A DNA stretch of 64,000 nucleotides, taken from Cordylochernes scorpioides (Eukaryota > Arthropoda > Arachnida > Pseudoscorpiones > Chernetidae). The stretch is taken from contig CP092863.1 of the NCBI GenBank assembly GCA_030710605.1, forward strand, positions 55,518,507 to 55,582,506, given 5' to 3'. This document shows positions 741 through 61,640 of this stretch, piece after piece. Positions within the stretch are counted from its first letter, which is position 1. The number at the start of each line of letters is the position of its first letter. The notes beneath the pieces are model-generated. The model saw nothing but the letters and a program-made list of their open reading frames with translations. It was not told the origin of the DNA and searched no databases. A program made the translations under genes and the position numbers.

Positions 741-915
741 TTGCCGATGCAGTGGGCCGCGCTCAGCACCCACCAATCCGACAGCAGAGTGCCCCCGCAG
801 AAGAAGACTTCCATGGGGCCCCCATGTAGGGCCACCATCCATGGCCACCTACCTGGGGAGGCCTCTAGGCCCCCCACGATCCTGGCTTGAGGGTGGAGGG
901 GCGCCCTCCCGCAGT
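741..915 (-). CDS. Corin: Corin-like exon 9: start of trypsin-like protease domain (last exon fully supported in window)
   Basis: The acceptor GGTGTGTAG/AC (phase 1) begins [20 protein letters not shown], then [31 protein letters not shown] and IGK, and ends at donor GGCAA/GTAAGT (phase 2). R-IVGG is the zymogen activation site and AAHC contains the catalytic His of the S1 triad. The Cys of DCG would tether the stem to the protease after activation. The exons with catalytic Asp and Ser are not in the window. A second in-frame acceptor (AG before 926) would allow exon 7 to join directly. Confidence 0.94.
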
Positions 916-3900: not shown

Positions 3901-6900
3901 TGTACAAGGATAGTAAACAATAGGCATCGTTTTAAAGTATTTAAAAGGGAGAGATGACACATTTGGTGCATGAATACCATCCTTCCGCAACTTTAAGTTA
4001 TATTCAAGGTAAGTTCAAATAATTATAGGATTGGCTGCATGAATTAATTTGTACATTATACATATATCAATGCATCGCAATAATTATATTTTGCACATCT
4101 AGCGAAAGAAGTAGGTAAAAAGCATTTTTCTGAAAGCTTTTCGGGCCATCAGTAATTTTCATTCGATTTTTTTTTTACATCAAATCTGTTTCCCTTCATG
4201 AACATTTTAAATTTGCAGTAAAAAGTAAAAGATCATGTAGAGATGAATATGGAGAATAGGGGTGATGGGAATATGTAAATCAGTAGTGATTTCAAAGCAA
4301 AAATGGCATTGTCTGTATGAGATCGCGCATTATCGCGCATTTTTAAAATACTTTTCTGGTATTTCGATTTTAATCGATTTCTTTAAACACCACAAACCGA
4401 TCAGATGATTGATTGTAATTATTGACATTATTTCTACTGATTCGTGTCTTCTATGATAGCTTTTTTTTCGAGCAATTTATGATTGAAATTGACATGTTGT
4501 TGTCGGTAGTTATGCCGATTGATAGTTTGGCCCGATTTCAGCACTTCATGGTAAACGATTCCTTTCTGATCCTACCAAACGCAGAGCAATCGCTCTTTTA
4601 TGAATCGAATTGGCCGTGCTATCAAAGATAAGGCTTCGTAAGGTGAAAGTCTTTTTTTTTTTTGCTTTTGAGATTTTAGAAATATACCCGACTCTAATCA
4701 CCAGCAACAATCCAATGCAGGAATCTCTTTCCTTTTTTCGAAAAAGCTAAATTTCTAAAGTGGTTCTTCAATCTTTCATCCGCCTCTTAGTCAACTCATG
4801 TGGCGCTCATTTCCCTTTCTTTTGAATTCTCCACACATGCTAAGCTTTGAAATACCATGGCGAGTCATGTTTAATTCCTTCGCAAGTTGATCTTGTGTTT
4901 GAGTTTAAATTTCATCCAATAACGCTTGCAGATCGGCGTCCTCCATTTTTTGTTTTAGTTTCTAGAGAATTCCCTCTCTCTCCTCAGTAGTGAAATTCCC
5001 CCTTTTGAAGATTTTAAAACCAAAATTTAAAGCAAACAACGTTATTCAAATTATTTTTCAAGCTTTCCACAAGTACTGATCGTTTGTTAGAAAAATACTT
5101 TTTTTTTCGCGTTGCGGCATGTGTTTGCATTACTGGTAATTGTTGGCAGATGTCCAACCTGTAATAACGCAACGTTATACGTGATGACGATAGCGCCATT
5201 CATGTTTAGAATTCGGAAATTTAGTTGCGCACTTAGTATGTTGTACCGTCTTGATACAAAGAGTCAAATGAACCGTATGATCGGTAGATGCCATCATAGA
5301 GGGAAAGAGGAGAAGAGTTCTCACCGCAATCTGTTTCATCCGAGAGATCTTCGCAATCTGCGATGCCATCACAGCGCCAGTTTGATTGCAGACAGCGTTT
5401 GGGGTGGTCGCACTGGAGGCCAGTGGCGCAGCCTGAAAACACATGTTAACAATACCGAATTAATATTAGGGACCGGTGGCGTACCCTGGAAACACGTGTT
5501 AACAATACCACCGAATTAACATTAGAGACCAGTGGCGTACCCTGGAAACACGTGTCAACAATACTGAATTAATATTAGAGACCAGTGGCGTACCCTGGAA
5601 ACACGTGTCAACAATACCGAATTAATATTAGAGACCGGTGGCGTACCCTGGAAACACGTGTCAACAATACCGAATTAATATTAGAGACCGGTGGCGTACC
5701 CTGGAAACACGTGTCAACAATACCGAATTAATATTAGAGACCGGTGGCGTACCCTGGAAACACGTGTTAACAATACCACCGAATTAACATTAGAGACCAG
5801 TGGCGTACCCTGGAAACACGTGTCAACAATACCGAATTAATATTAGAGACCAGTGGCGTACCCTGGAAACACGTGTCAACAATACCGAATTAATATTAGA
5901 GACCGGTGGCGCACCCTGGAAACACGTGTCAACAATACCATAGAATTAACATTAGAGACCAGTGGCGTACCCTGGAAACACGTGTCAACAATACCGAATT
6001 AACATTAGAGACCAGTGGCGTACCCTGGAAATACGTGCTAACAATACCGAATTAACATTAGAGACCGGTGGCGAACAATGAAAACACGTGTCAACAATAC
6101 CGAATTAACATTAGAGACCAGTGGCGTACCCTGGAAACACGTGTCAACAATACCACCGAATTAATATTAGAGACCGGTGGCGTACCCTGGAAATACGTGT
6201 CAACAATACCGAATTATTATTAGAGACCGGTGGCGTACCCTGGAAACACGTGTCAACAATACCGAATTAATATTAGAGACCGGTGGCGCACCCTGGAAAC
6301 ACGTGTCAACAATACCACCGAATTAACATTAGAGGCCAGTGGCGTACCCTGTAAACACGTGTCAACAATACCGAATTAACAATAGAGGCTAGTGACGTAT
6401 CCTGGAAACACGTGTCAACAATACCGAATTAACATTAGAGACCAGTGGCGTACCCTGGAAATACGTGCTAACAATACCGAATTAACATTAGAGACCGGTG
6501 GCGCACAATGAAAACACGTGTCAACAATACCGAATTAACATTAGAGACCAGTGGCGTACCCTGGAAACACGTGTCAACAATACCACCGAAATAACATTAG
6601 AGACCAGTGGTGTACCCTGGAAACACGTGTCAACAATACCGAATTAATATTAGAGACCGGTGGCGCACCCTGGAAACACGTGTCAACAATACCGAATTAA
6701 TATTAGAGACCGGTGGCGTACCCTGGAAACACGTGTCAACAATACCGAATTAATATTAGAGACCGGTGGCGCACCCTGGAAACACGTGTCAACAATACCA
6801 CCGAATTAACATTAGAGACCAGTGGCGTACCCTGGAAACACGTGTCAACAATACCGAATTGATATTAGAGACCGGTGGCGTACCCTGGAAACTCGTGTCA

Positions 6901-9900
6901 ACAATACCGAATTAATATTAGAGACCGGTGGCGCACCCTGGAAACACGTGTCAACAATACCGAATTAATATTAGAGACCGGTGGCGCACCCTGGAAACAC
7001 GTGCTAACAATACCGAATTAACATTAGAGACCGGTGGCGCACAATGAAAACACGTGTCAACAATACCGAATTAACATTAGAGACCAGTGGCGTACCCTGG
7101 AAACACGTGTCAACAATACCACCGAAATAACATTAGAGACCAGTGGTGTACCCTGGAAACACGTGTCAACAATACCGAATTAATATTAGAGACCGGTGGC
7201 GCACCCTGGAAACACGTGTCAACAATACCGAATTAATATTAGAGACCGGTGGCGTACCCTGGAAACACGTGTTAACAATACCAACGAATTAACATTAGAG
7301 ACCAGTGGGGTACCCTGGAAGCACGCGTCAACAATACCGAATTAATATTAGAGACCGGTGGCGCACCCTGGAAACACGTGTCAACAATACCACCGAATTA
7401 ACATTAGAGACCAGTGGCGTACCCTGGAAACACGTGTCAACAATACCGAATTAATATTAGAGACCGGTGGCGCACCCTGGAAACACGTGTCAACAATACC
7501 ACCGAATTAACATTAGAGACCAGTGGCGTACCCTGGAAACACGTGTCAACAATACCGAATTAATATTAGAGACCGGTGGCGCACCCTGGAAACACGTGTC
7601 AACAATACCGAATTAATATTAGAGACCGGTGGCGCACCCTGGAAACATGTGTCAACAATACCGAATTAATATTAGAGACCGGTGGCGTACCCTGGAAACA
7701 CGTGTCAACAATACCGAATTAATATTAGAGACCGGTGGCGTACCCTGGAAACACGTGTCAACAATACCGAATTAATATTAGAGACCGGTGGCGCACCCTG
7801 GAAACACGTGTCAACAATACCACCGAATCAACATTAGAGACCAGTGGCGTACCCTGGAAACACGTGTCAACAATACCACCGAATTAACATTAGAGACCGG
7901 TGGCGCACCCTGGAAACACGTGTCAACAATACCACCGAATTAACATTAGAGACCAGTGGCGTACCCTGGAAACACGTGTCAACAATACCGAATTAATATT
8001 AGAGACCGGTGGCGCACCCTGGAAACACGTGTCAACAATACCGAATTAATATTAGAGACCGGTGGCGTACCCTGGAAAAACGTGTCAACTATACCACCGA
8101 ATTAACATTAGAGACCAGTGGCGTACCCTGGAAACATGTGTCAACAATACCGAATTAATATTAGAGACCGGTGGCGTACCCTGGAAACACGTGTCAACAA
8201 TACCGAATTAATATTAGAGACCGGTGGCGCACCCTGGAAACACGTGTCAACAATACCACCGAATCAACATTAGAGACCAGTGGCATACCCTGGAAACACG
8301 TGTCAACAATACCACCGAATTAACATTAGAGACCGGTGGCGCACCCTGGAAACACGTGTCAACAATACCGAATTAATATTAGAGACCAGTGGCGTACCCT
8401 GGAAACACGTGTCAACAATACCGAATTTATATTAGAGACCGGTGGCGCACCCTGGAAAATTGTGTCAACAATGCCACCGAATTAACATTAGAGACCAGTG
8501 GCGTACCCTGTAAACACGTGTCAACAATACCGAATTAACAATAGAGGCCATTGGCGTACCCTGGAAACACGTGTCAACAATACCGAATTAATATTAGAGA
8601 CCGGTGGCGTACCCTGGAAACACGTGTTAACAATACCAACGAATTAACATTAGAGACCAGTGGGGTACCCTGGAAGCACGTGTCAACAATACCGAATTAA
8701 TATTAGAGACCGGTGGCGCACCCTGGAAACACGTGTCAACAATACCACCGAATTAACATTAGAGACCAGTGGCGTACCCTGGAAACACGTGTCAACAATA
8801 CCGAATTAATATTAGAGACCGGTGGCGCACCCTGGAAACACGTGTCAACAATACCACCGAATTAACATTAGAGACCAGTGGCGTACCCTGGAAACACGTG
8901 TCAACAATACCGAATTAATATTAGAGACCGGTGGCGCACCCTGGAAACACGTGTCAACAATACCGAATTAATATTAGAGACCGGTGGCGCACCCTGGAAA
9001 CATGTGTCAACAATACCGAATTAATATTAGAGACCGGTGGCGTACCCTGGAAACACGTGTCAACAATACCGAATTAATATTAGAGACCGGTGGCGTACCC
9101 TGGAAAAACGTGTCAACTATACCACCGAATTAACATTAGAGACCAGTGGCGTACCCTGGAAACATGTGTCAACAATACCGAATTAATATTAGAGACCGGT
9201 GGCGTACCCTGGAAACACGTGTCAACAATACCGAATTAATATTAGAGACCGGTGGCGCACCCTGGAAACACGTGTCAACAATACCACCGAATCAACATTA
9301 GAGACCAGTGGCGTACCCTGGAAACACGTGTCAACAATACCACCGAATTAACATTAGAGACCGGTGGCGCACCCTGGAAACACGTGTCAACAATACCACC
9401 GAATTAACATTAGAGACCAGTGGCGTACCCTGGAAACACGTGTCAACAATACCGAATTAATATTAGAGACCGGTGGCGCACCCTGGAAACACGTGTCAAC
9501 AATACCGAATTAATATTAGAGACCGGTGGCGTACCCTGGAAAAACGTGTCAACTATACCACCGAATTAACATTAGAGACCAGTGGCGTACCCTGGAAACA
9601 TGTGTCAACAATACCGAATTAATATTAGAGACCGGTGGCGTACCCTGGAAACACGTGTCAACAATACCGAATTAATATTAGAGACCGGTGGCGCACCCTG
9701 GAAACACGTGTCAACAATACCACCGAATCAACATTAGAGACCAGTGGCATACCCTGGAAACACGTGTCAACAATACCACCGAATTAACATTAGAGACCGG
9801 TGGCGCACCCTGGAAACACGTGTCAACAATACCGAATTAATATTAGAGACCAGTGGCGTACCCTGGAAACACGTGTCAACAATACCGAATTTATATTAGA

Positions 9901-12900
9901 GACCGGTGGCGCACCCTGGAAAATTGTGTCAACAATGCCACCGAATTAACATTAGAGACCAGTGGCGTACCCTGTAAACACGTGTCAACAATACCGAATT
10001 AACAATAGAGGCCATTGGCGTACCCTGGAAACACGTGTCAACAATACCGAATTAACATTAGAGACCAGTGGCGTACCCTGGAAATACGTGCTAACAATAC
10101 CGAATTAACATTAGAGACCGGTGGCGCACAATGAAAACAAGTGTCAACAATACCGAATTAACATTAGAGACCATTGGCGTACCCTGGAAACACGTGTCAA
10201 CAATACCACCGAATTAACATTAGAGACCAGTGGCGTACCCTGGAAACACGTGTCAACAATACCGAATTAATATTAGAGACCGGTGGCGTACCCTGGAAAC
10301 ACGTGTCAACAATACCGAATTAATATTAGAGACCGGTGGCGTACCCTGGAAACACGTGTTAACAATACCAGCGAATTAACATTAGAGACCAGTAGGGTAC
10401 CCTGGAAGCACGTGTCAACAATACCGAATTAATATTAGAGACCGGTGGCGCACCCTGGAAACACGTGTCAACAATACCACCGAATTAACATTAGAGACCA
10501 GTGGCGTACCCTGGAAACACGTGTCAACAATACCGAATTAATATTAGAGACCGGTGGCGCACCCTGGAAACACGTGTCAACAATACCACCGAATTAACAT
10601 TAGAGACCAGTGGCGTACCCTGGAAACACGTGTCAACAATACCGAATTAACATTAGAGGCCAGTGGCGTACCCTGGAAACATGTGTCAACAATACCGAAT
10701 TAACATTAGAGGCCAGTGGCGTACCCTGGAAACACGTGTCAACAATACCGAATTAACATTAAAGACCAGTGGCTTACCCTGGAAACACGTGTCAACAATA
10801 CCAAATTAACATTAGAGACCAGTGGCGTACCCTGGAAACACGTGTCAACAATACCGAATTAACATTAGAGATCAGTGGCGTACCCTGGAAACACGTGTCA
10901 ACAATTCTGAATTACATTAGAGACCAGTGGCGTAATCTGGAAACACGTGTCAACAATACCGAATTAACATTAGAGACCGGTGGCGCACAATGAAAACACG
11001 TGTCAACGATACCGAATTTACACTGGAGACCAATGGTATAGCCTGAAAACCCGTGTTAACAACAGGGAATTAACATAAGAGATCAGTGGCGTATCCTGAA
11101 AACATGTGTCAACAATATTCAATATACACTAGAGACCGATGGCGTATCCTGAAACATGTGTGTCAACAATACCGAGTTAACACTCGAGACCGGTGGCGCA
11201 CCCTGAAAACACGTGTCAACAATCTCGAATTAACACTGGAGACCAATGGTGCAGCCTGACAACACGTTGTGATACGAGATTAACACTATAGACCGGTGGG
11301 ACAGTCTGCGAACACACGACATAACACTGTAGAAACACTATAGAAACATTAGTTAGAAACCTTACCACTGCTCAGTGGTGTAATGTACGTTACCAAAATG
11401 ACCTAACAACTTGTCTGTAAGTAAGCGGTAGCCATACAGACTCAACACCAGTGGCACAAACTGTAAATACGTAAACTTCCTTTTTCAGACATGAACAAAC
11501 TACATTCTTTTACAAGTGAAGGTGAGGGGTTAAAAAAACTCCTTTATTTTAAAATTATTTGTTAAGTTTTAAATATGATAGAGGGAAACCTGGACATTTC
11601 TTCGGAGTGAAGGGAATCTCAATTGTGGTGGAGTGGCAAAATTTCGCAGATATCTGCTAGATTGGCTAAATTATCGACCTATGGTGTAGGCTTATGTTTT
11701 CTGATTGGATTTCCTTAGTTCTAACTCCTAGCAAAGAAAATCAATTTAGAGAGAATAGGTGCTCATAAAAATTCCTTAAATATGCCAGATTAAAATTCCT
11801 ATTTAATTATAAATCTTTCCTGTTTTGAACCCATAATTTATATTGAATAAAAGCACATTTTAAAATGATAATTGCAGAGTTCTAAATCATGTCTTTTTTT
11901 AAATAAAATGTTGAAATAAACTTTAAACCAAACCTTACTTTAAGACCCCTTCAAGTTATATTATATACGTGTATATATAGAAAAATCGTGAGATAGCATA
12001 TTTCAATCAAAGTTTTTGAAAAATTTATAAACAATTTTGAGAGATATATAAAAACTCTTATTGCTAAAAAAAATCATCATAGAGATAACCATTTTCATAT
12101 TAAGAGTATTTTTAGAGAAAATTAGGTTTTAAATTTTAATTAATTGCTTTGAAGGCATGACCAATCAATTCGAATATTAGTTTTCAACAGATAATTTAAA
12201 CGAAGTTAAATAAATTTTGTGATTTCAAAGAACTATTGTCTGGACAAGCAATTGTCTTGACGTACGAACTGAAGAGCTTTGTTGGAATCAAAACATGTTT
12301 TCGCAATTATTCGCAGTCTGACGAGTAGGTCAGAATGTACCATTCAATACTTCCAATGGGAATTTGGCCAAACTCCAGGCCATCCAAATATTTTACATTT
12401 TGCGCTTAATAATATCAGAAAATATCCTTGTACATCATAGAATTTAACACCAAATAATTTTATTCTTAAGTCTTATTTGATAAATTTAGGAAATGTTTAA
12501 AGATATATCAAAAAAAGAAGAAAATTGCTTATAAAACTTTAGGTCTAAATTTGTTGAAGAGGTTTCAGTTTCCATGTTAAATAACCCTAACTTAAAAGGT
12601 TACCTCATCATTGCTTGTAAACATTTTACGCTATAATAGGGTTAGTGAACATTTGAACCCGTCCCGAAACATTCCTTTGTGTTAAATTAGCATATCGTGC
12701 ATCAAAAAATAAAAATTCTCAAATTTGCATCAATATCTTGAAATTATTTTAATTGCATCAAAATTCAACAAATTTGTAGATTTAAATGATCATTATACAA
12801 AAATAAATATAAAACTTTCCATTTGCAGAAATCAAAATCATTACAATAGCTATTTACTTTTTGAATGTTCTCGGCTTTTATAAATGACTAGAAGCTTAAG

Positions 12901-15900: not shown

Positions 15901-18900
15901 CTCTGACCTCAAATACCTTATACACCTTGTAGAAATCTAAAAATGCCGTAACTCATAGTAAATTTGCTCTAGACTAATGTTTAGGATTTTAAAGTGATTT
16001 TATCAACACCAATATTCCTATGAGAGCAGACATACAACTTTCTCGAGGTTTGGCCATGTGTCTACAAGGATCACCGGCCTCGAATTGCTATAGTCAAAGG
16101 ACAAAACTTGGGAAAGATGGTGGTCTGTTCGGCGAAATATTGGTGTTCCGAGGTATGGCTATTATTCAGAACTCTAGAGAATAATTTACTCTGAACGAAT
16201 TTCTAACAAATATATTCCTTTCGAAAAAAAAATGTTTCACCTATGAAAGCAGTCTTACCGTTACAAGGCATTTCTATATTTGAAATTTGCGGAATATACT
16301 ACATTGATTAAAATTGAATAAATTTATTTGTAAATAACTTGCGGTCCTTCATATTTATCGTAAAGGTAGAGGTTGCCTGGCCGACACTCTATTTTTGTGA
16401 TTATTAAAACTATCAAATATAATTATAATTATTGAAATTAAAGATACTTCGGCCAGTAAATCTTTTTAATACCTCGACGTTTCGACAAAAATCTTTTGTC
16501 CTCTTCAGGAGCACACAAAATATTTTTGTCGAAACGTCGAGGTAATAAAAAGATTCACTGGCTGAAGTATCTTGAATCATTCATATTTAATTTCTATCTG
16601 CAATTCTACCTATTTAAGTAAATGGTAAGGAGTATTTAGATGAAATAATGTGCACATTTAGATAAAGAGAGCGAGCTGAATCAACTAGGTTAGGTGGCAC
16701 TCACCATGCTGGGACCGCCGCACCACCTCGGTGTCATTGTGGCCCAGACAGACGCTGGGGTCCCTACTGTCCGGCAGGTCCTCGCACGCCTGGTCGTTGG
16801 GCCACGTCAGTGTGAAGACGCCCAGGAAGAAGTCGCAGTGTCGCCTCGTCTCTATTACCACACCCCGTCATCCCTGATCTTTTTGCGTACTTTGCATCAA
16901 CATTATATAAATATAAGAAAATACATGGAAATTTTGAAAGAGTATTGTATTCATGTTGAAAAAATAAGCTTTTAAAATGAAAAGGTTAGTGCTGAATTGC
17001 ACATTTCTGTATTCACAACAGGTGCGTTTTCATACGGGTCAGCAGGTGGATTTTAAAGCTAGAGAAATTTTGCTGTAGAGAAATACCTATCTTTAGAACT
17101 TACCTGTAATAAATAAACCCGAGTACAAGCCTTCTAATTCGAAAGAAATATTTTGCAATTATTTAGTTTTATAAAAGATAAACTTCTTTTAAAATACTGA
17201 ATGAACAATTCATTCAATAACTCGTTTTGTTTAGAGCGAACAAATCCAAATAAGTAATCAGTCACAATGCTTCTATACCCAGTTGTTATTACATCGGTAT
17301 CCTTTAGTTAACCCAATATTCATCTTGTTCCAATAATCTTTGGAAACCTCAAATTTGTTATGATAGAATTTATAATTTATCAGAAAATATTATCGACATA
17401 TTAATTCATTTTTAGATTTTTATGCTAAAATTTGTTTTATTAGAATCCCTGTGTGGGCTTAATTTGGCACTTGAATTGTAAAAAGCGCTTGGAGTAACTT
17501 TTATATTTGAAATTTTAAAATTTGTGTGGGAAAAATCGAATTGATTGATTCTTTAAAATATGAATCGATGTGAAAATGACTTGTGGTACAAAAATATAAT
17601 CAACTATATTGTCAAAATAATTAATTTAAAAACTAACGAACACAAACACACGTAACAAACATGATGCGGCGTTAAGGAGGTTATAATCTTATAGAAGTCA
17701 CATTTTGACTTGAGACCGACTCCGTGATGTAAATAGAAATTGGAACATTTTAGTTTAAATACTCAGCTATAGACTCGGGGGATTAAAGTTGACTTCGATG
17801 TCGTAGAGCGTCTAACAACCCATTCCACTTGGTTCTTGTCCTCCAGGTTTTCTTCAACCCACACATTTCCCTTATATTTATATATTTTTAAATATACTAA
17901 TATATATATATGTGAGCAACAGTTACCTAGAAATTATTTGAAAAAGAAAGAATAAACAATATTAAGGTAAAGGGTTTCTTTTAATTTTGATTTTCGCAAG
18001 CTTTCGAGCAAAATTTGTGCTCTTCAACGGGCATATACTTCTATATACAATATCAAGATGAACTTTGTACAGTAATAATTCCAACACTTAAAAAGACGCC
18101 AACATCCCTTGGAATGGGACAGAATATAAAATTATTATCAAATATACTATTGTGAATTTCATTTCGTACAGTCAAGCTTCAACCTTTTTAGATTTTCATG
18201 TTATCATTTTTTAAAATAATCTAACTTCAAATATATTTTACACTTGATGTTCTAATTCCATTCCAATTGTCACCAAGCGTGTTGGATGATATCACACTAT
18301 TCAACATATATTATTCAAATTTTATCATATATTATGAAATTCATAATATTTTATTCATTATATATATATATATATAATGTTACTTCACACAATTCTATGT
18401 GAGCATACGATGTTATTAATTTATTCAAAATAAATTGTGCTTTATATCCAGCACTTAAAAAGACGCCAACATCCCTTGGAATGGGACATAATATGTAAAT
18501 TATTATCAAAATTGTTGAAGATATTAATCTGAGATTTTGAATGTTTCTTTTTGACCAGTACTTTTGTTTTGTTTTTGCTGTTTCCTAAAATGTTTTTTCT
18601 TCTTCTTCATTATTATTTGTTCTATATGTAAAGCTTTGTTTTTTGAGACTTGAATAAACAAATTCAAGTTTATTATATTTTTGTGGGCTTTTAAAGTTAA
18701 ACCACAACAAAAATAAAAAATAATAAAGGTAAAAAGTAGGGAAAGAGAGAATAATCCAAATATTTCTGTAAAGAATAAGAATTCAAAATTTCTGTTTGAT
18801 AAACTGTTTTGTCATCCTGACGTTTGACTTCCCCAATTGTTTAAATGACAATCGAAACATTCTATGAAGTATATCCTGCAGTAAATGGGCACAATTTCCT

Positions 18901-21900
18901 TCTAGAGAGTGTAAGTGATCTGATTAGGTGGGGCGAGCGTTACCTTCACAGAGGCTGCGGCACGGGGGCACGGTCCCCCCGCCCGGCTCCTCACACTTGG
19001 GGGCATACAGCGAGCAGAGGTACAGCGGCAGCAGGTGGTAGCAGTTGACGCTCACGATCGGCTCAAACCGCGACACCAGGTCCACGATGTCACCCTGAGA
19101 GATCCCGGCAACGGTCCTGGTGTACGGGACCTTGTACCGATAGCACAGGGGGATCCTCAGGGGCACACAGGAAGCCCCTGCTGATAATCCTCCGTTCCCA
19201 GTCTGGCTAAGAGATTCGCCGACTTCGACTTACCTCGGCTTTCAGTGGGCGAGGCCAGGATGCTTGGAGACGTTACTGCAACCAACATACAGTGATACAT
19301 TTCTCGTCGATAACATTTTTCTTATCACACTTGGGCAGAAAATAAAGAGCAATAGAGATGTTTAATCTTCATGTACTCTTAAACATTTTCTCAAAGGAAA
19401 ACATATAGAGTGAATCTTGAATATATTCCTCAAGAAAATGGTATTAGGTGAACATAAGGTGATAGGCACACTATTAGAGAGTCAAATACCTGTAACTAAA
19501 GGGATCTTTGTATTATAATATTAACTGAAAACTTCATAACCTTTATATATTTTAACAAACCTAGATGACTTCTGCGCAATGTTATTTGAATTTACTATTT
19601 ATTTTGCGCATAAAAATCAATTTTAAACAGGTAGTGATAGAGACTTAGTCTAAAATCTTTATTTATATTCAATTATATTTAAAAATAATGCCTCAATATG
19701 TATTAGGACTCCGAGTGGTGGTTCATCATTAATCCCGGACGAAGAATCGGCTCCTACCTGTCAGGAGCCAGACAACCACACGGTGTTGGAACTACCCATC
19801 TGTCTGGAGCCAGATCACCACCCGGTGTTGGCCTCACCCATCTGTCTGGAGCCGAATCACCACCCACCCACCTGTCAGGAGCCAGACCATCACCCGGTGT
19901 TGGCACTACCGGTCTGTCTGGAGCCATATCACCACCCACCCACCTGTCAGGATCCAGACCACCACTCGGTGTTGGCACCACCCATCTGTCTGGAGCCAGA
20001 TCACCACCCACCCACCTGTCAGGAGCCAAACCAACACTCGGTGTTGGCACCACCCATCTGTCTTGAGCCAGACAAACACCCTGTGTTGGCACCACCCTCC
20101 CATCTGCCAGGAGCCAGACCAACACCCGGTATTGGCACCACCCATCTGTCTGGAGCCAGATCACCACCCACCCACCTGTCAGGAGCCAGACCAACACTCG
20201 GTGTTGGCACCACCCATCTGTCTTGAGCCAGACAAACACCCTGTGTTGGAACCAACCCCCATCTGCCAGGAGCCAGACCAACACCCGGTGTTGGCACCAC
20301 CCACGCACCTGTCAGGAGCCAGACCACCACTCGGTGTTGGCACCACCCACCTGTCAAGAGCCAGAGCACCAATCGGTGTTGGCACCACCCACCCACCTGT
20401 CAGAAGCCAGACAACCAATCGGTGTTGGCACCACCCACCTGTCAGGAGCCAGACCACCACCCGGTGTTGGCACCACCCACCCACCTGTCAGGAGCCAGAC
20501 ACCACCCGGTCTTGGCACCACCCACCCACCTGTCAGGAGTTAGACCACCACCCGGTGTTGGCACCACCCACCTGTCAGGAGCTAGACCACCACCCGGTCT
20601 TGGCACCACCCACCCACCTGTCAGGAGTTAGACCACCACCCGGTGTTGTCACCACCCACCCACCTGTCAGAAGCTAGACCATCACCCGGTGTTGGCACCA
20701 CCCACTCATCTGTCAGGAGCCAGACCGCTACCCAGTGTTGGCACCACCACTACCCACCTGTCAGGAGCCAAACCACCACCCACCTGTCAGGAGCCAGACC
20801 AACACTACCCACCTGTCAGGAGCCAGACCAACACTACCCACCTGTCAGGAGCCAGACCACCGCTATCCACCTGCCAGGAGCCAGCCTGCCACTACCCACC
20901 TGTCAGGAGCCAGACCATCACTGCCCACCTGTCAGGAGCCAGACCGCCACCCAGTGTTGGCACTACCACTACCAACTTGTCAGGAGCCAGGTCAACACTA
21001 CCCATCTGTCAGGAGGCATACCAACACTACCCACCTGTCAGGAGCCAGACCACGGCCGCCCCCAACACCAGCAGCAGCACGAGGAACATCACCAGGTACA
21101 GACCACGTCGGGAAGACAGCACGAACGACGTCCTGGGTAAGGAGCCCTGCATAAAACCATAACATGATCTCGCCAATTTCATAAAGTAAATCATTTTTAA
21201 ACAAAACGTATAAAGTGCTTACTATGGGTTAAATATTATGCTCCCTCTTGCCTATTGTTTTATTGGTACATTTATGCTTAAATATATTATTATTGCTTTT
21301 TATATTGATAAAATATAAGTGCTTTCCATTCTATTAATATATACAATTATCATAAAATAAAAAATTTCATTCTGGATAAACTTTATTAAACTTTATTAAC
21401 ATCATGAAACGCGATATCCCAAACTCAGGGATATTTGCGTCAATACCTTTCACTGCATTACAGCAATTCGGCTTTATACAATCCTGTACAATTCATTATT
21501 TTACATAAATTAACTAAAGAAAATTGTCCAAAGAGAAAAACAAACAACAAAGCAAAACACACAGAGCAAGCATCGCAGTTCTTTTTTTTTTTCTCTAAGA
21601 TTCCTTCTCTTTTTTCCAATTTAAGAGAAAGTTGTATATGTATTTACAAAATTGATCGATATTTTTATACTTTTCTTTTTTGTCTACAAATTCATCAAGC
21701 TGTCCAATACGACCAAATCTATTTTCCCTAATATCCCGGAAAATTGGGCACTCCAGAAGTAGATGTCTCGCGTCTTGAATTTCACCTCCGCAGAAGCATC
21801 CTGGTTCCTTCACGGCGCCGATAGTTGCCAAAAATTTCCCAAAATTGCCATGATCTGTAATGAATTGGATATTATAAAAATTTGGACGGAAATATCTTGG

Positions 21901-35607: not shown

Positions 35608-35638
<31 letters not shown>

Positions 35639-38600: not shown

Positions 38601-40991
38601 CTTTTAATTAAAAAGTCCGGGCGTTAGCTTTTACTCTGTTGCTATTGTCAAAACCCGCTTGATCCTGAGTGAATAACATGTTCTCACTGACAAAGCCCTT
38701 CCCCCGAGGCCATGTGTCACATCTTCTTCTCCGCAAATGTCACATACAATTCCGCCAACAGTTAAAAAAATCGCTCGAATAAAATTTGAAAGAATAAAAT
38801 TTGATATACTCTGTGGCATTTCCGGAGTTTTATAACTAGATAGTCATTCTTTTCACACCGTATCCTACCTATATTGGCAAACCTTTTGCTGCGTTTTATA
38901 TAAAAATATATAAAATTTCAATTTAAAAAAAATAATTGATAAAATTAATAAAATAATTGAAAAACAAATAACTAATCAATAATGTGTTATATTTAATATA
39001 TTACTCTATTTTACAATTTGTTATATTAAAAAAAAAAGGTTTGCGCTAACAAATATAATTTTGTTAGCGCCAACCTTTTTTTCCAAAGATATAACAAATC
39101 CTACTGTCCTATCTGCTATGTTACAAATAATAGGAGGGCCTGGCTAACACACACACATCAGTTGTGAAGGCTTTCAGTATAGCTCTACCATTATCTCAGT
39201 AAGGGCATACAGAGAATAGAATTTGTTATGTTTGAAGCATTCTAACTAAAATAATGTGATTTTCTGATACCAGATGGCGCGCGAATACATCATGTGTAAT
39301 ATCACAAACATCATGGCACTCATTATCTATGGAAATTGTTTGAACATACAAAATTTAGTTGTTATAGATTACCAAAATGTGGTCGTTTATTGTCACATAG
39401 CTGAAGCAATAATTGTTCAGAATCTTTTTGCGAAAGCACACGCTATAACAGAGTGTTAATTCATTTTAAACCTATTTATCACGCGTTTCTTAATATTCAT
39501 TTAACTTCTCCATTAAAATTAATATATACGTAAATAAATATATGAAACATATGATCTATAGATCTAGGTAAACTTTGTTTGCAGAACTTGCAACAAAGAA
39601 CTCACCATATATCTACGCAATTGGGTATCGCACGTTTTAAAACAGCCCACGTATACCATTTTATAATTAATTGTTTGCTGATTAAACACAATTCAACATC
39701 ATATTTAGAAAAGATGGCCCACATGTTTAATATTTGTTTTAAAATATTTATTTATATTTTACTTTTACGGTACTACAGTATTTTTGACAAAAGTTATTAC
39801 TTTTGCGGGTTATCATACAAAAATGGAATATAGTAGTGCCTAAAGTAAATGTAACTCAATGCACAGAAAAGAGTACACTCAAGAGTGCAACACCAACAAC
39901 AAGAAGGAGGTAAATAAAACTCGCGATTGGTAAAATAAAACAAAACGGTACTTAGCTTTATTGTAGCGATGGTAGGGATCGGACTCGGATGACACAGGGA
40001 TGCGAAGAGAACAGCCAGACAGGGAAAACTTCGTAGAAAAACACTTTTAGCGACTCCACACCAATTTTCCACGCTCTGGGCCCCCCTCGCATTCCCTTAG
40101 TCCCCTCTTATATACAGACATGGCCACTTTCGTCCAATGAGAAGGCGTGAGAGATTGGTTCACCAACAAACGAAGACAACATTCTTCCCTCTAAAACCTG
40201 ATCAGAAAAAAAAAACTGAAAATGTTTGTCAATATAATTTGACATTTTTATTTTTAAAAAGGATAATATATCTTATGGCGCTCTGCCTTCTAAAAAGCAC
40301 ATGTGCTCGTGGTCAGGAAATGCCTTCTTTATTTTTAATATCTTATTATAAATAAAAAGGGATATCCTGACAAGGAGCACATGTGCTTTTCAGAAGGCAG
40401 AGCGCCATCTGGTGGAACAGAAATCAACTAATCATTGATTTAGCCTGTTCCCTGATATTTGGCCAACCCAATTTCTTGATAAATCAAGAAAAGCCATCCA
40501 CGAACGCGTTTCGCGCTGTTGGCGCTCTGCCTTCTGAAAGGCATATCTGCTCCTAGTCAGGATATTCCTTTTTTATTTTTAATATCAACACCTGACCTTT
40601 TTATTTTGTATTTTTCTATTGTTTTTTCATATCTTATTATATTTCACTGTGTAAAAGTGCCATCCATAATAAAATAACTTTAACATATACAAAAACCGCG
40701 CTTAGATAAAAACCACGAATTATGAATTGTGTTAGCGCTAAAAGATAATTCCTAATAAAAGAGCTAAATAAAGAAACTTCGCTATCCAAAAATTAAGGTT
40801 TTTTTAAAGCGAAGTAGCTAAGAACGTCGCGACAAAAGGATGGTTCAATCAGGGTCCCGCGGGAGGAGCCGCACAAAGACGGTGAATGGGACCGAGGAGG
40901 CAAACATGCCGCGGCATTCACAGCTCCTCACCTGGGATTTGTTCAGCCGCTCACCCTCCTCTTCTTCGGCGCCGTCTTCGTTGTTCTCCAT
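741..40991 (-). CDS. Corin: corin-type type II transmembrane serine protease, multi-exon gene (3' part outside window)
   Basis: Nine minus-strand exons join as 40932-40992, 21035-21146, 19234-19275, 18944-19180, 16705-16851, 5325-5432, 3228-3534, 2687-2736 and 741-915. From the ATG at 40991 this gives 1,238 coding bases (412 codons plus 2), with all intron phases consistent (0,1,1,1,1,1,2,1). Domains in order are an acidic cytoplasmic tail, one membrane segment, a Frizzled cysteine-rich domain, LDLa, LDLa, SRCR and trypsin. This order (one Frizzled domain, two LDLa) matches insect Corin; vertebrate corin has two Frizzled domains and more LDLa. The family consists of membrane-bound zymogens that act at the cell surface and cleave peptide precursors; the substrate here is unknown. 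The catalytic Asp and Ser exons are missing and must lie left of base 1. The exon model is hand-made from splice consensus, phase and domain match. Confidence 0.87.
916..2686 (-). other. intron between exons 8 and 9; no further gene seen
   Basis: AT-rich intron with scattered short ORFs that look like chance. A GC-richer patch at about 2,150-2,420 contains an open minus-strand segment after an AG near 2311, but it has no good donor and does not fit the domain series. Nothing else is supported. Confidence 0.5.
2687..2736 (-). CDS. Corin: Corin-like exon 8: 50-nt exon completing the SRCR domain
   Basis: The acceptor ATGTGCATAAG/G (phase 2) and strong donor CTACG/GTAAGT (phase 1) bound 50 nt encoding [17 protein letters not shown]. 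The C-x9-C pair with S-V-x-V-x-C is the expected end of an SRCR domain. Joined to exon 9 it reads SCKGYDCGRAP, which aligns with the C-x3-D-C-G linker before the protease domain of corins. The phases fit both sides. The exon was found only because the domain was incomplete without it. Confidence 0.78.
3228..3534 (-). CDS. Corin: Corin-like exon 7: LDLa module 2 and first part of SRCR domain
   Basis: The acceptor TACGACAG/GG (phase 1) begins [18 protein letters not shown], then [20 protein letters not shown], a complete six-cysteine LDLa module. It is followed directly by an SRCR start: [20 protein letters not shown] and [10 protein letters not shown]. The donor is CTTCTAG/GTAAAC (phase 2). 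The exon is distinctly GC-rich against the surrounding intron. The SRCR domain lacks its last two cysteines here; they are supplied by exon 8. Corin and enteropeptidase SRCR domains are similarly degenerate. Confidence 0.9.
3535..5324 (-). other. intron between exons 6 and 7; no gene seen
   Basis: AT-rich non-coding sequence with poly(T) runs. The ORFs in it, for example the plus-strand 69-codon frame near 4,422-4,631, have no recognisable motif. Confidence 0.55.
5325..5432 (-). CDS. Corin: Corin-like exon 6: LDL-receptor class A module 1
   Basis: The acceptor TGTGTTTTCAG/GC (phase 1) starts [19 protein letters not shown], then [17 protein letters not shown], and ends at donor TGCG/GTGAGA (phase 1). 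All six cysteines and the calcium-binding pattern D-x-x-x-D-C-x-D-x-S-D-E are intact. Single-module, phase 1-1 exons are typical for LDLa repeats. The first 17 or so bases of this exon and the 36 bases before it make up the unit of the adjoining 53-bp minisatellite. Confidence 0.94.
5433..11330 (-). repeat. 53-56-bp minisatellite, about 108 copies, built from the exon 6 splice acceptor
   Basis: The unit on the minus strand reads GGTACGCCACTGGTCTCTAA, an AT-rich middle, then GACACGTGTTTCCAG. The true junction reads ATGTGTTTTCAG/GCTGCGCCACTGGCCTC. The unit is therefore about 36 bases of intron end with the AG plus the first 17 or so exon bases, about 14 of 17 identical. The array starts at the first base outside the exon and decays between about 11,000 and 11,330. 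Length variants of 53 and 56 bp (extra ACC) alternate, and multi-unit blocks recur, for example around 8,060, 9,090 and 9,530. The ORFs inside it are repeat artefacts. Confidence 0.95.
11331..13417. other. intron sequence between the minisatellite and the nested heat-shock gene
   Basis: AT-rich DNA without a recognisable gene. The one ORF here (minus, 12,940-13,206) is low-complexity and has no motif. I see nothing functional. Confidence 0.5.
13418..13423 (-). terminator. poly(A) signal AATAAA of the nested small heat-shock gene
   Basis: AATAAA lies 17 bases after the TAG stop on the minus strand, giving a very short 3' UTR. It could also cut transcripts of the host gene prematurely, since both run in the same direction. 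Confidence 0.6.
13440..13937 (-). CDS. small heat-shock protein (HSP20 / alpha-crystallin family), intronless, nested in Corin-like intron
   Basis: The 165-residue product starts [14 protein letters not shown] at the ATG at 13937; the frame is open a little upstream but without another ATG. The alpha-crystallin domain runs from about residue 44 ([20 protein letters not shown]) through [15 protein letters not shown] and [12 protein letters not shown] to [10 protein letters not shown] near residue 120. A C-terminal V-P-I-K-V (I/V-x-I/V type) motif that docks neighbouring subunits follows. The family forms ATP-independent chaperone oligomers that hold unfolding proteins. The gene lies on the same strand as its host gene, in the intron between exons 5 and 6, with its own TATA box and poly(A) signal and no intron. 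That fits either a retro-copied or a naturally intronless stress gene. GC content is much higher than the flanks. Confidence 0.93.
   Translation of the reverse strand: MDLLLWDVPRDLGRRSLMTPDLWNIVLPRKQSSSCGRSEVINTQHKILIQLDVSQYQLDELSVKMVDDAVVIHGKHEEKEDEHGWVSREFTRRYMLPPLVDHQALTSKLTANGVLTVEAPKKHLQPPSEKSVPIKVEHKPSAAVKDAQEGIKGDSSVPNCTKSPL
13992..13998 (-). promoter_or_regulatory. TATA box of the nested small heat-shock gene
   Basis: TATAAGG on the minus strand, 55 bases upstream of the ATG, in a GC-richer context. I looked for heat-shock elements (alternating GAA/TTC) just upstream and saw only an imperfect half (GGAGCATTTCC). Confidence 0.6.
14860..15860 (+). pseudogene. decayed mariner-type transposase
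   Basis: Broken plus-strand frames carry [30 protein letters not shown], an NIWSPD-like segment and a tail ending [19 protein letters not shown]. These follow the order of mariner-superfamily transposases (S-D-E-K-x-F, V-M-P-P-x-I-F-x-x-G-L, N-x-W-P-P-N-S-P-D, then a helix with R-R-x-x-x-x-I-E). Many stops and frameshifts make it inactive. The wording of these motifs resembles a mariner family I recall from parasitic copepods. No intact terminal repeats were found. Confidence 0.6.
16441..16573. repeat. near-perfect 133-bp inverted repeat with hammerhead-like core (16473-16511, minus)
   Basis: The left arm AAGATACTTCGGCCAGTAAA through CTCGACGTTTCGACAAAAAT is mirrored by the right arm ending GGCTGAAGTATCTT. 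On the minus strand the core reads CTGAAGA, a stem GACAAAA/TTTTGTC, GAAAC and GTC, with 3-bp stem I (CTC/GAG). This is the layout of the small hammerhead ribozymes of Penelope-like elements, with one extra G at the base of stem II. Confidence 0.55.
16705..16851 (-). CDS. Corin: Corin-like exon 5: Frizzled domain, second part
   Basis: The acceptor GGTAATAG/AGACG (phase 1) completes GAG and continues [18 protein letters not shown], with QACEDLP and SVCLGHND, ending SQH then donor CATG/GTGAGT (phase 1). The three cysteines bring the Frizzled domain to ten, the full complement. The 11.3-kb intron after it contains the nested heat-shock gene and the largest minisatellite. Confidence 0.93.
17905..18032 (-). 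repeat. dispersed repeat with degenerate hammerhead-like motif (17992-18032)
   Basis: The plus-strand text TGTGAGCAACAGTTACCTAG followed by AAATTATTTG and AGAAAG is found again, diverged, at 44,972-45,040. On the minus strand 18,032-17,992 reads GTTGAAGAGCACAAATTTTG then CTCGAAAGCTT. That is a T-for-C change in the CTGANGA box, a stem GAGCA/TGCTC, GAAA, and a two-base stem III closing on CTT. I infer a fragment of a Penelope-like or related ribozyme-bearing retroelement. Confidence 0.4.
18087..18510. repeat. 58-bp direct repeat pair, 364 bp apart
   Basis: The segment CACTTAAAAAGACGCCAACA followed by TCCCTTGGAATGGGAC starts at about 18,087 and again at 18,451 with two or three differences. 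It contains its own small hairpin. The pair could be terminal direct repeats of a small decayed element. Confidence 0.6.
18944..19180 (-). CDS. Corin: Corin-like exon 4: Frizzled domain, first part
   Basis: The acceptor TATCAG/CAGGGG (phase 1) leads to [20 protein letters not shown] and on through [20 protein letters not shown] and [10 protein letters not shown], ending at donor GAAG/GTAACG in phase 1. Seven cysteines in the order and spacing of a Frizzled cysteine-rich domain are present, including the family signature PLC-Y...Y..T and P-L-YLC--YAP-C. In corins these domains lie in the stem outside the cell and help in recognition of the substrate. The remaining three cysteines are supplied by exon 5. 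Confidence 0.93.
19234..19275 (-). CDS. Corin: Corin-like exon 3: 42-nt stalk exon
   Basis: The acceptor GTTGGTTGCAG and the strong donor GAG/GTAAGT bound a 42-nt exon, phase 1 to phase 1, encoding [14 protein letters not shown]. This is a Ser/Thr/Pro-rich linker between the membrane anchor and the Frizzled domain. The intron after it is only 53 nt (19181-19233), ending TATCAG. A nearer AG at about 19207 would make a 27-nt intron and shift the frame, so I rejected it. The exon is too short for ORF-based detection and rests on splice signals and perfect phase fit to both neighbours. Confidence 0.72.
19747..21034 (-). repeat. 29-46-bp minisatellite, about 30 copies, built from the exon 2 splice donor
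   Basis: The minus-strand unit contains GTGGTCTGGCTCCTGACAG/GTGGGT, the same bases as the end of exon 2 plus its donor, followed by about 20 bases with CCAACACCGGGT. Copies next to the exon (20,750-21,034) are short (about 29 bp) and lack the CCAACACCGGGTG part; farther copies are 42 or 46 bp. Long ORFs on both strands across this array arise because units are often 42 bp, a multiple of three. They are not genes. Confidence 0.95.
21035..21146 (-). CDS. Corin: Corin-like exon 2: signal-anchor transmembrane segment
   Basis: The acceptor TTTTATGCAG/GGCTCC starts in phase 0. The exon encodes [15 protein letters not shown], then a hydrophobic stretch beginning [14 protein letters not shown], then AAVVWLLT, and ends CTGACAG/GTGGGT in phase 1. 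Basic residues (SRR) just before the hydrophobic run give the positive-inside rule expected of a type II anchor (N-in, C-out). An in-frame ATG lies across the acceptor at 21152, so an alternative start inside a read-through transcript cannot be excluded. The last 18 or so bases of the exon plus its donor form the unit of the minisatellite that fills the next 1.3 kb of intron. Confidence 0.82.
21595..22709 (-). mobile_element. LINE A, 3' part (reverse transcriptase palm to C-terminus), split off by insertion of LINE B
   Basis: The minus frame 22,709-22,281 begins [20 protein letters not shown] and includes the catalytic [11 protein letters not shown] frameshift leads into 22,311-21,595 ([18 protein letters not shown], then a cysteine-rich [20 protein letters not shown] end). 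It is the continuation of the element at 25,887-28,960: the text GCPQGGPLS there resumes here. It resembles arthropod non-LTR elements with an apurinic-type endonuclease (Jockey/R1-like). It is inactive. Confidence 0.88.
22728..23765 (+). pseudogene. LINE B endonuclease C-terminal half and linker
   Basis: Continuous frame with [14 protein letters not shown] (GDxN motif) and [13 protein letters not shown] (SDH catalytic motif), interrupted by one in-frame TAA at 23,094-23,096 and ended by a TAA at about 23,760. The real reading continues in another frame at 23,768, so at least one nonsense and one frameshift mutation separate it from the reverse transcriptase. Confidence 0.85.
23768..25756 (+). 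pseudogene. LINE B reverse transcriptase and C-terminal zinc-knuckle region, 662-residue open frame
   Basis: Contains [96 protein letters not shown] and [10 protein letters not shown], the finger and palm motifs of a LINE reverse transcriptase. The usual A in DLxKAFD is D in this copy (DLTKDFD) and PQG is LQG. A C-terminal [20 protein letters not shown] motif is the usual cysteine-histidine end. The long open frame shows that it is younger than LINEs A, C and D. Confidence 0.93.
25887..26902 (-). pseudogene. LINE A reverse transcriptase, N-terminal half
   Basis: The frame 26,902-26,132 has [20 protein letters not shown] and [20 protein letters not shown], then a frameshift near 26,140. The frame 26,147-25,898 gives [20 protein letters not shown] and [13 protein letters not shown] at the LINE B insertion point. 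The AFD and PQG motifs are the standard palm elements. Confidence 0.9.
26912..27826 (-). pseudogene. LINE A endonuclease domain
   Basis: Starts [20 protein letters not shown] and carries [24 protein letters not shown] and [12 protein letters not shown], which are the E, GDxN and SDH catalytic motifs of the APE-type endonuclease that nicks the target. It ends with an in-frame TAG after WWDE; the same frame continues past it (LEKMKNDF), so a single nonsense mutation separates it from the reverse transcriptase. Confidence 0.9.
27854..28955 (-). pseudogene. LINE A ORF1 (nucleic-acid-binding Gag-like protein)
   Basis: The ATG at 28,955 starts a helical segment ([20 protein letters not shown]). 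The frame is broken at two A-runs near 28,800 and 28,640 and then runs open for 277 codons. It ends in cysteine-histidine knuckles [28 protein letters not shown] and CNCYNC. Such knuckles bind the element RNA in the particle that reaches the target. Slippage in the A-runs is the likely cause of the breaks. Confidence 0.82.
29150..31680 (-). mobile_element. LINE C, decayed relative of LINE B
   Basis: Minus-strand fragments align with LINE B in order. 31,535-31,326 has [20 protein letters not shown] and near 31,300 [15 protein letters not shown]. About 30,790-30,700 reads [20 protein letters not shown]. 30,563-30,300 has the palm end and KSKMMVFR. A cysteine motif [18 protein letters not shown] lies near 29,600-29,530. 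Stops and frameshifts abound. It keeps AFD where LINE B has DFD, so it preserves the ancestral residue. Confidence 0.8.
30797..31197. other. AT-rich insertion inside LINE C
   Basis: Relative to LINE B, LINE C is interrupted between the [13 protein letters not shown] and [13 protein letters not shown] segments by about 400 bases of very AT-rich sequence that codes for nothing visible. It could be a small non-autonomous insert. I could not see clear terminal repeats. Confidence 0.45.
32010..32085 (-). repeat. tRNA-like pol III promoter sequence (SINE head or tRNA relic)
   Basis: Minus strand: TAGCTTACTGG (A-box-like, 32,069-32,059) and AAGTTCGATTG (B-box-like, 32,026-32,016) are spaced 32 bases apart, as in tRNAs. 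A clear acceptor stem was not found, so a tRNA-derived SINE or decayed tRNA is more likely than a working tRNA gene. Confidence 0.35.
32299..32338 (-). ncRNA. hammerhead-ribozyme core, near-canonical
   Basis: Minus strand 5' to 3': TAGG (stem I), CTGACGA, stem II GGGC-loop CATTA-GCCC, GAA, A-C (stem III) with loop CATT closing on G-T, then C (cleavage after GTC), then TCTA (stem I partner, one G-T wobble). Every conserved core base of the hammerhead fold (CUGANGA, GAA, NUH) is present and stem II is perfect. The very short stem III is characteristic of the hammerheads carried by Penelope-like retroelements and retrozymes. I read this by eye; activity is an inference. Confidence 0.6.
33640..34015 (-). 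pseudogene. decayed C2H2 zinc-finger gene fragment
   Basis: The minus frame reads [20 protein letters not shown] then [18 protein letters not shown], which follows the C2H2 linker pattern H-x-R-x-H-T-G-E-K-P with x-C-x2-C and H-x3-H. Most zinc ligands are changed (H to Y, T to S, E to N, C to Y, missing Cys). At least two finger units are recognisable. It is non-functional, probably a retro-copy or part of a mobile element. Confidence 0.5.
34740..35095. other. GC-rich island with open frames on both strands, unidentified
   Basis: A sharply bounded GC-rich stretch in AT-rich intron DNA. The minus frame 35,097-34,702 (131 codons, with [20 protein letters not shown]) and the plus frame 34,758-35,030 (90 codons) are both open. 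A TATAAAG lies on the plus strand at about 35,024 and TTTATAGA on the minus strand at the same place. Options are an alternative promoter or first exon of the host gene, a nested gene, or an old insertion. I do not recognise the protein. Confidence 0.4.
35360..35396 (-). repeat. degenerate hammerhead-like motif in repeat debris
   Basis: Minus strand reads CTGTAGA, AAGGC, loop AGCTTAC, GCCC, GAAAGCTC. This is the GAAAGCT(C) ending seen near 18,000 with a changed CTGANGA box. It was probably once a ribozyme of the same retroelement class. Confidence 0.35.
35607..35640. repeat. (TA)n microsatellite
   Basis: A run of alternating TA of about 28 bases. Confidence 0.8.
36421..36840. repeat. diverged tandem duplication, about 180 bp at 240-bp spacing
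   Basis: The segment from about 36,421 to 36,600 (TGCCAATGATGATGGTACCC ... CCAGTTGGATTAATCAA) recurs at about 36,661-36,840 with roughly 15-20 percent differences. It has no coding content; the minus-strand ORFs over it are A/T-run artefacts. Confidence 0.7.
37370..38470. repeat. 16-bp minisatellite, about 65-70 copies
   Basis: Unit ACCATCTAGTGTGTAC with variants (TTTAT, AATTCC, CAGTAC). It is not next to any recognised exon and shows no splice-site relation. Alternating TAC/TAT variants form a two-unit pattern in the first third. Confidence 0.95.
39016..39099. repeat. 84-bp inverted repeat (MITE-like hairpin)
   Basis: ATTTGTTATATT then A-run, GGTTTGCGCTAACAAA is mirrored by TTTTGTTAGCGCCAACC, T-run and ATATAACAAAT. 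The core GTTAGCGC recurs singly at about 40,731 and 62,988. Confidence 0.65.
40276..40407. repeat. 132-bp inverted repeat with a separate half copy at 40520-40570
   Basis: The left arm TGGCGCTCTGCCTTCTAAAA and AGCACATGTGCTC is mirrored by GAGCACATGTGCTTTTCAGA and AGGCAGAGCGCCA. A half copy TGGCGCTCTGCCTTCTGAAA lies at 40,520. The family is apparently a foldback or MITE-like element. Confidence 0.7.
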
Positions 40992-40992
40992 C
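40932..40992 (-). CDS. Corin: Corin-like exon 1 (first coding exon): acidic cytoplasmic tail
   Basis: The acceptor TTTCCTGCAG is followed by G and then ATG (start at 40991). Twenty codons follow, including an acidic run (EEEEGE), up to the donor CAG/GTGAGG. The exon ends in phase 0, which matches exon 2. The acidic tail followed by a basic patch and a membrane segment is what a type II anchor needs, so I take this ATG as the start. Because the exon opens with a splice acceptor, at least one upstream 5' exon is expected right of 40,992; I could not find it. The acceptor side is continuous with a minisatellite made of copies of this same junction. Confidence 0.72.
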
Positions 40993-42614
40993 CTGCAGGA
41001 AAGTCCTGGACCACACGCCAAATATTAATACAAGACAGTTCCATCCTGCAGGAAAGTCCAGACCCACACGCCAAATATTAATACAAGACATTTCCATCCC
41101 GCAGGAAAGTCCTGGGCCACACGCCAAATATTAATACAAGACACTTGCATCCTGCAAGAAAGTCCTGGGCCACCGCCAAAAATTAATACAAGATACATCC
41201 ATCCTGCAGGAAAGTCCTGGGCCACACCCCAAATATTAATACAAGACAGTTCCATCCTGCAGGAAAGTCAAGACCCACAAGCCAAATATTAATACAAGAC
41301 ATTTCCATCCTGCAGGAAAGTCCTGGGCCACACGCCAAATATTAATACAACGCACTTGCATCCTGCAGGAAAGTCCTGGGCCACACGCCAAACATTAATA
41401 CAAGACCCTTGCATCCTGCAGGAAAGTCCTGGGCCACACGCCAAATATTAATACAAGACACATCCATCCTGCAGGAAAGTCCTGGGCCACACCCCAAATA
41501 TTAATACAAGACACTTGCATCTTGCAGGAAAGTTCTGGACCACACGCCAACTATTAATACAACGCACTTGCATCCTGAAGGAAAGTCCTGGGCCACACGC
41601 CAAATATTAATACAAGACATTTCCATCCTGCAGGAAAGTCCTGGGCCACACGCCAACTATTAATACACGACATTTCCATCCTGAAGGAAAGTCCTGGGCC
41701 ACACGCCAAATATTAATACAAGACATTTCCATCCTGCAGGAAAGTCCTAGGCCACACGCCAAACATTAATACAAGACCCTTGCATCCTGCAGGAAAGTCC
41801 TGGACCACACGCCAAATATTAATACAAGACATTTCCATCCTGCAGGAAAGTCCTGAGCCACACGCCAAATATTAATACAAGACATTTCCATCCTGCAGGA
41901 AAGTCTTGGGCCACACGCAAAATATTAATACAAGACACTTGCATCCTGCAGGAAAGTCCTGGGGCACATGCCAAATATTAATACAAGACACATCCATCCT
42001 ATAGGAAAGTCCTGAGCCACACGCCAAATATTAATACAAGGCACTTGCATCCTGCAGGAAAGTCCTGGGCCACACCCCAAATATTAATACAAGACACATT
42101 CATACTCCTGCAGGAAAGTCCTGGGCCACACCCCAAATATTAATGCAAGACACTTTCATCCTGCAGGAAAGTCCTGGACCACACGCCAAATATTAATACA
42201 AGACATTTTCATCCTGCAGGAAATTCCTGGGCCACACGCCAAATATTAATACAAGACATTTCCATCCTGCAGAAAAGTCCTGAGCCACACGCCAAATTTT
42301 AATACAAGACATTTCCATCCTGCAGGAAAGTCTTGGGCCACACGCAAAATATTATTACAAGACACATCCATCCTGCAGGAAAGTCCTGGGGCACATGCCA
42401 AATATTAATACAAGACACATCCATCCTATAGGAAAGTCCTGGGCCACACGCCAAATATTAATACAAGGCACTTGCATCCTGCAGGAAAGTCCTGGGCCAC
42501 AAGACAAACATTAATACAAGACTTTCATCCTGCAGGAAAGTCCTGGGCCACACGCCAAATATTAATACAAGGCACTTGCATCCTGCAGGAAAGTCATGGG
42601 TCACACGCCAAAGG
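40993..42614 (-). repeat. 53-bp minisatellite, about 30 copies, built from the exon 1 splice acceptor
   Basis: The minus-strand unit reads GATGGAAATGTCTTGTATTA, ATATTTGGCGTGTGGCCC, AGGACTTTCCTGCAG. The true junction is GGACTTTCCTGCAG/GATGGAGAAC. Each unit thus repeats the acceptor and the first 6-7 exon bases including the ATG. The array begins at the base next to exon 1. Because 53 is not a multiple of three, the repeated ATGs lie in all frames. Confidence 0.95.
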
Positions 42615-61500: not shown

Positions 61501-61640
61501 TATCTAGGTGACAGATACATCAATCAGATATAGAGTTAGGTCTGGAAACACTCCATGTTATAGTTACGTCCACCAGTATTTGAACCATCTAGGTGACAGA
61601 TACATCAATCAGACATAGAGTTAGGTCTGGAAACATCCTG
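58572..61640. repeat. 85-bp minisatellite, right block (about 36 copies)
   Basis: Same unit as the left block but dominated by ACGTCTACC and GATACATCAACCAGATATAGA variants. Near the right end a further subtype appears (TACTAGTATTTGAAC, CAATCAG). Confidence 0.95.

Follow-up and report, generated by a model that had tools for sequence, protein, structure and literature searches.

The window analysed here comprises 64,000 nucleotides of contig CP092863.1 from the pseudoscorpion Cordylochernes scorpioides (assembly GCA_030710605.1, forward-strand positions 55,518,507 to 55,582,506; all coordinates below count from its first letter). It contains a minus-strand gene accompanied by three minisatellites, A1, A2 and A3, whose units repeat the splice junction of an adjoining exon, a predicted junction in the case of A3 (Table 1). 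Seven exons of this host gene fuse without frame error into a single protein, the joined set consisting of six whole exons, from 40932–40992 to 5325–5432, and the initial 300 bases of the exon starting at 3534. The joined protein runs from a short acidic N-terminus through a membrane span, an Fz domain and two LDLa domains into the start of an SRCR domain. Fz, two LDLa stretches and SRCR_2 were recognised by Pfam on the joined exons and Trypsin on a separate exon, and the membrane span was judged by eye. The order membrane span, Fz, LDLa, SRCR, trypsin, in which the trypsin exon is linked to the others by order and strand, is that of a protein which we take to be Corin, and on this domain order the host gene appears to be Corin-like. 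Past the trypsin-domain frame, a further protease-like frame lies beyond the window. The Fz exon of the host gene matches one place in the assembly, and hence no second allele was seen.

Arrays were detected with Tandem Repeats Finder (TRF), and junction copies were counted in an edit-distance scan with probes of 39 nt (at most 11 edits) for A1, 22 nt (at most 5) for A2 and 28 nt (at most 5) for A3, three dinucleotide shuffles of each probe serving as controls. Including the genic copy, 109 junction copies were found for A1, 34 for A2 and 31 for A3, and none with the shuffled probes at the same cut-offs. The preliminary description had placed each array at an exon edge and had taken its units for copies of that edge. 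This stands for A1 and A2, whose acceptor and donor edges, respectively, are supported by the in-frame joining of the exons, and for the 31 copies of A3 it depends on a predicted acceptor. The described succession on the minus strand of acceptor, donor and acceptor was confirmed, as were the mutually unrelated unit sequences; 17, 14 and 6 exon bases (the last at the predicted junction) lie within the units of A1, A2 and A3, and array and exon overlap by the same numbers. Each unit leads from intron through splice-site sequence into 6–17 exon bases, and on the intron side the units follow one another head to tail, in line with the proposal that the arrays were built from junction copies and expanded into the introns. 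The A1 intron spans 11,272 bp (16704–5433), and A2 occupies about 1.28 kb of a 1.76-kb intron. Within the 2.62-Gb, 24-contig assembly each unit matched its own locus only, in a search that scores the best candidates and passes over very common words.

Table 1. Exons of the host gene and large tandem arrays in the window.
Feature	Position	Strand	Details
First recognised coding exon	40932..40992	-	G/ATGGAGAAC to CCCAG/gtgagg; donor backed by joining, acceptor predicted only
Membrane-span exon	21035..21146	-	Donor CTGACAG/gtgggt at 21035/21034
42-bp linker exon, downstream of A2 intron	19234..19275	-	In-frame joining
Exon for N-terminal part of Fz	18944..19177	-	Domain match and in-frame joining
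Exon for C-terminal part of Fz	16705..16851	-	Acceptor weak (0.1, simple position matrix)
LDLa-1 exon	5325..5432	-	Acceptor gttttcag/GCTGCG at 5433/5432; opening 17 bases inside last A1 unit
LDLa-2 and SRCR-start exon	3229..3534	-	3' end uncertain
Trypsin-domain open frame, first part of domain	740..991	-	Assigned to host gene by order and strand
Array A1	5416..11279	-	53/56-bp unit on 3' splice junction of LDLa-1 exon, about 36 intron and 17 exon bases; TRF 5416–11267, 53 bp x ~108; one weaker copy farther out, reaching ~11323
Array A2	19751..21048	-	5' splice junction of membrane-span exon, 34 copies, 14 exon bases; TRF ~19758–21052, mixed units of 29–72 bp
Array A3	40987..42612	-	53-bp unit x 31 on predicted 3' splice junction of first coding exon, exon bases GATGGA; TRF extent and unit identical
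Fourth array	37375–38469		16 bp x 68; touches no recognised exon
Fifth array	53652–61642		~85-bp unit; touches no recognised exon

Such arrays had been thought undescribed, but the lancelet 'mirages' already on record have, in the passages of those reports that bear on it, the same arrangement (PMC3087553; PMC3902484), which for A3 presupposes the predicted acceptor. Three features of mirages can be compared directly. The unit crosses an exon–intron boundary and includes exon bases and the splice site, as in A1 and A2 and, if its predicted acceptor is real, in A3. The repeats extend into the intron while the genic copy stays next to the exon, which again holds for A1 and A2, with the same proviso for A3. 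The origin is local rather than a dispersed repeat, in agreement with units found only at their own locus among the best candidates scored. Further traits of mirages are undisturbed mRNA splicing and a copy number that varies between alleles or somatically. With a probability that we put at roughly 0.7, A1–A3 are thus mirage-type minisatellites that arose by local tandem duplication and are tolerated in introns. Evidence in favour includes the 109, 34 and 31 junction copies against none in the shuffles, the locally unique units, unlike the dispersed units of several arrays sampled elsewhere, the in-frame Fz/LDLa/LDLa/SRCR protein, the probable seniority of the A1 exon and the stops met by A1 decoys (both below), and the undisturbed splicing reported beside such repeats in lancelets. 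Each array would have been started by an ordinary local tandem duplication with breakpoints on either side of a splice junction and would later have expanded by slippage or unequal exchange. Growth would persist on the intron side only, because copies within the exon would break the protein. The array could be tolerated if pairing of splice sites takes place across the short exon: the exon-adjacent copy would then be spliced, the remainder would be lost together with the intron, and the copies would need no function.

A mutational process aimed at junctions, in which R-loops formed during transcription, or pausing at splice sites, repeatedly prompt duplication in this gene or generally, would be an alternative, given three independent arrays at 3 of 12 edges in one gene (counting the seventh exon would add two more edges, both negative and one uncertain). 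The preliminary description had favoured a process recurring throughout the genome and had proposed a search for its enrichment, which we carried out on 73 loci of four Pfam families, representing 51 sets of near-identical exons. The loci measured 3 kb for LDLa (30), myosin-head (30) and TCP1 (8) matches and less for I-set matches (5). They are top-scoring family matches rather than a random draw, and each edge was assigned to the site that looked most splice-like, 19 edges that lacked such a site being left out. A 36-nt junction probe was tested against the adjoining flank. Outside the host gene, a junction copy within 8 edits was present at none of 127 edges, within 9 at one and within 10 at two, and at these two (L046 and L047) the edge is probably misplaced. 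By comparison, 44 of 522 control intron probes from the same flanks, some possibly including exon sequence, had a copy within 8 edits, as had 98 of 774 in a wider control set that includes probes beside the host gene's own edges. Junctions look depleted, rather than enriched, for their own copies, and junction-spanning arrays are rare elsewhere and apparently selected against. A genome-wide junction-copying process is not supported by this small sample, which a rare process might nevertheless have escaped.

The same survey did yield a slight skew in where arrays begin. Among 18 array rows, taken from one locus (the first) per exon group (68 loci, 77 edges in all), 4 started no more than 25 bp from an exon edge; starts spread uniformly over 1,400 bp would give about 0.3 (binomial probability about 2.5e-4). 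Against its bearing on a junction-targeted process, the units of two of these four arrays (L030 and L046) recur at other sampled loci, no exon bases are visible in the sequences of any of the four, and the L046 edge is probably mis-set, with a true gap closer to 45 bp. The notion that arrays generally crowd exon edges is weakened by these sequences, by the junction probes and by the dispersed units, leaving a skew without junction copies, and a process directed at junctions is on balance an unlikely source of A1–A3. Long open frames beside exons were also considered as a pointer to arrays and dropped, as locus L036 has such an array and L050 has none.

How the arrays grew can be read in part from A1. 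A 978-bp block (7660–8637) is repeated 1,464 bp further on with 99.3 percent identity, which points to recent growth by whole blocks. The part of the unit that overlaps the exon carries the codon (TGC) of the first LDLa cysteine, whose second base is A in 72 of the 109 copies (changing cysteine to tyrosine), G in 36 including the genic one, and T in one. These counts fit an exon under selection beside freely drifting copies, and the exon probably predates the copies; an exon derived from an older array would fit the conserved LDLa domain poorly. This also bears on the converse history, in which the arrays are older and exon edges moved into them, or in which A3 might simply be a repeat upstream that has nothing to do with splicing. 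Although most units offer a usable-looking splice site that could have been captured, the A1 overlap encodes this cysteine and the A2 overlap forms the in-frame end of the membrane span. We therefore regard splice-site capture as very unlikely, with the reservation that these counter-arguments cover A1 and A2 and none applies to A3.

The estimate of about 170 decoy splice sites in the preliminary description agrees in number with the 171 extra junction copies counted across the three arrays, genic ones excluded, but not all of these copies have intact splice letters: AG is kept in 104 of 109 copies in A1 and in 30 of 31 in A3, AGGT in 22 of 34 in A2. Scored with a simple position matrix (A2 donors among copies within 5 edits), the genic acceptor of A1 reaches 7.6, the 104 AG copies average 6.4 and three others equal or exceed the genic site. 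All 103 A1 decoys tested lead to a stop, after a median of 6 codons and at most 43, and read-through of the membrane-span donor meets a stop after 2 codons; if the gene works, the exon-touching copies are accordingly the ones chosen. Intact AGs and early stops are also what might be expected if the decoys were under selection to regulate splicing, for example via non-productive transcripts. In A1 and A3, however, the splice dinucleotides are no better conserved than many adjacent columns, and the loss of AGGT from 12 of the 34 A2 copies likewise speaks against maintenance, making selected decoys a highly improbable explanation.

The argument that three arrays out of three adjoin an exon has to be corrected, since TRF finds five large arrays in the window, together covering 26 percent of it, of which two touch no recognised exon; the ratio is three of five. 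When five arrays are placed at random against seven exons, the chance of an array ending 1–20 bp inside an exon is 0.0044, and three or more of five are expected with a probability of 8e-7 (binomial; 0 of 400,000 simulated placements). This is no clean test, because the window was picked for its arrays and the genome holds about 41,000 windows of the same size. Chance alone, which differs from the mirage reading solely in denying any bias, can draw on the richness of the window in arrays and on the very many windows read, but it is extremely improbable, as some 0.03 such cases per genome would be expected even if every window were equally rich, and an unrelated array overlapping an exon would not have units that copy the junction.

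Several points weigh against reading A1–A3 as tolerated mirages. The reading rests on the DNA of one assembly. The A3 acceptor, one base ahead of the predicted start codon, is predicted only, and joining cannot check it because no upstream exon to join there was found. Along A1, the exon part of the copies has no gradient of similarity to the exon, so that the direction of growth is not directly seen. Of the copies other than the genic one, 25 in A3 and 17 of 33 in A2 score at least as high as the genic site. Because so many decoys score as high as genic sites, site strength fails to explain the choice between them; the pairing of splice sites across an exon (exon definition) is an established idea, and it would best fit the selection of the exon-adjacent copies. 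Finally, 3 of 12 edges in the host gene stand against 0 of 87 sampled ones (first locus per group; Fisher p 0.0014), a comparison that is unfair in that the host gene was chosen for its arrays. Three arrays in one gene are more than the sample predicts. Conceivably, though we doubt it, the host gene itself repeatedly seeds junction duplications, for instance through heavy germline transcription and R-loops at splice sites; if so, one gene would have gathered three independent arrays of 31 to 109 copies and the sampled others none. The simplest reading makes A1–A3 a group of mirages within a gene rich in arrays, though it does not account for their concentration there.

Other features were observed in and around these introns. 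The A1 intron harbours an Hsp20 open frame (Pfam HSP20, 13443–13946) on the same strand as the host gene, and the intron between the first coding and the membrane-span exons contains reverse-transcriptase-like frames recognised by eye at 23747–25753 (plus strand) and 21598–22784 (minus strand). The fifth array is interrupted by about 1.1 kb (57472–58573), whose ends, by eye, resemble inverted termini such as those of TA-inserting DNA transposons; just past the right end of the array, at 61660–61730, part of the 85-bp unit recurs in inverted orientation, again as judged by eye. At the sampled loci, LDLa and myosin exons located on separate contigs (L014, L015, L046, L047 and others) adjoin a tandem unit roughly 113 bp long, and that of L046 has matches at 15 further sampled loci, as a dispersed repeat that is tandem in places. 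LDLa matches often form near-identical pairs tens of kb apart (e.g., L025/L026 and L009/L010) with differing array lengths, which are either recent segmental duplications or both haplotypes retained in the assembly. The motif TTAGG matched 748 times, 320 of them in forward and 428 in reverse orientation; among the matches listed, all lie in one block (G000:C1:4116714-4117352), about 4.1 Mb from the contig start.

New introns have been proposed to arise by tandem duplication of junctions. A related junction minisatellite is that of human IFI6 (6-16), which reportedly supplies multiple splice donor sites from short units, several of these donors being used in transcripts; the decoys described here are predicted from sequence. 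In human segmental duplications, minisatellite-type internal tandem repeats occur at exon–intron boundaries with 27 intron modifications, but these, as described in the relevant passages, have units of 30 bp on average in four copies and are tied to new introns and alternative transcripts (PMC2812944). Among the papers listed in our literature searches, none on mirages appeared beyond the lancelet reports; an earthworm metallothionein paper (PMC12783039) and a C. elegans paper (PMC4039745) concern, in the parts concerned, other repeats. The passages of the lancelet reports describe mirages in Adh, the globins BflGb6 and BflGb9, TnC and PGBD5, with units of 10–72 bp in Adh3 and 150–160 bp in the globins, 6 versus 3 units in two BflGb6 haplotypes, and regular splicing undisturbed by the repeats (PMC3087553; PMC3902484), PGBD5 and TnC being the additional cases of the second report (PMC3902484). 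Regular splicing was thus reported there, whereas the present arrays are known from genomic DNA. They differ further in occurring three to a gene, with up to 109 copies compared with the 6 and 3 units of BflGb6, and in a 2.6-Gb genome; as far as these passages show, copy number and the presence of three in one gene are what is new. Mirage-like repeats, described in these reports for lancelets and in milder form for humans, would thereby extend to another animal genome, at copy numbers above the lancelet globin case, and a gene apparently working beside some 170 look-alike splice sites would offer a natural setting in which to probe splice-site choice by the spliceosome.
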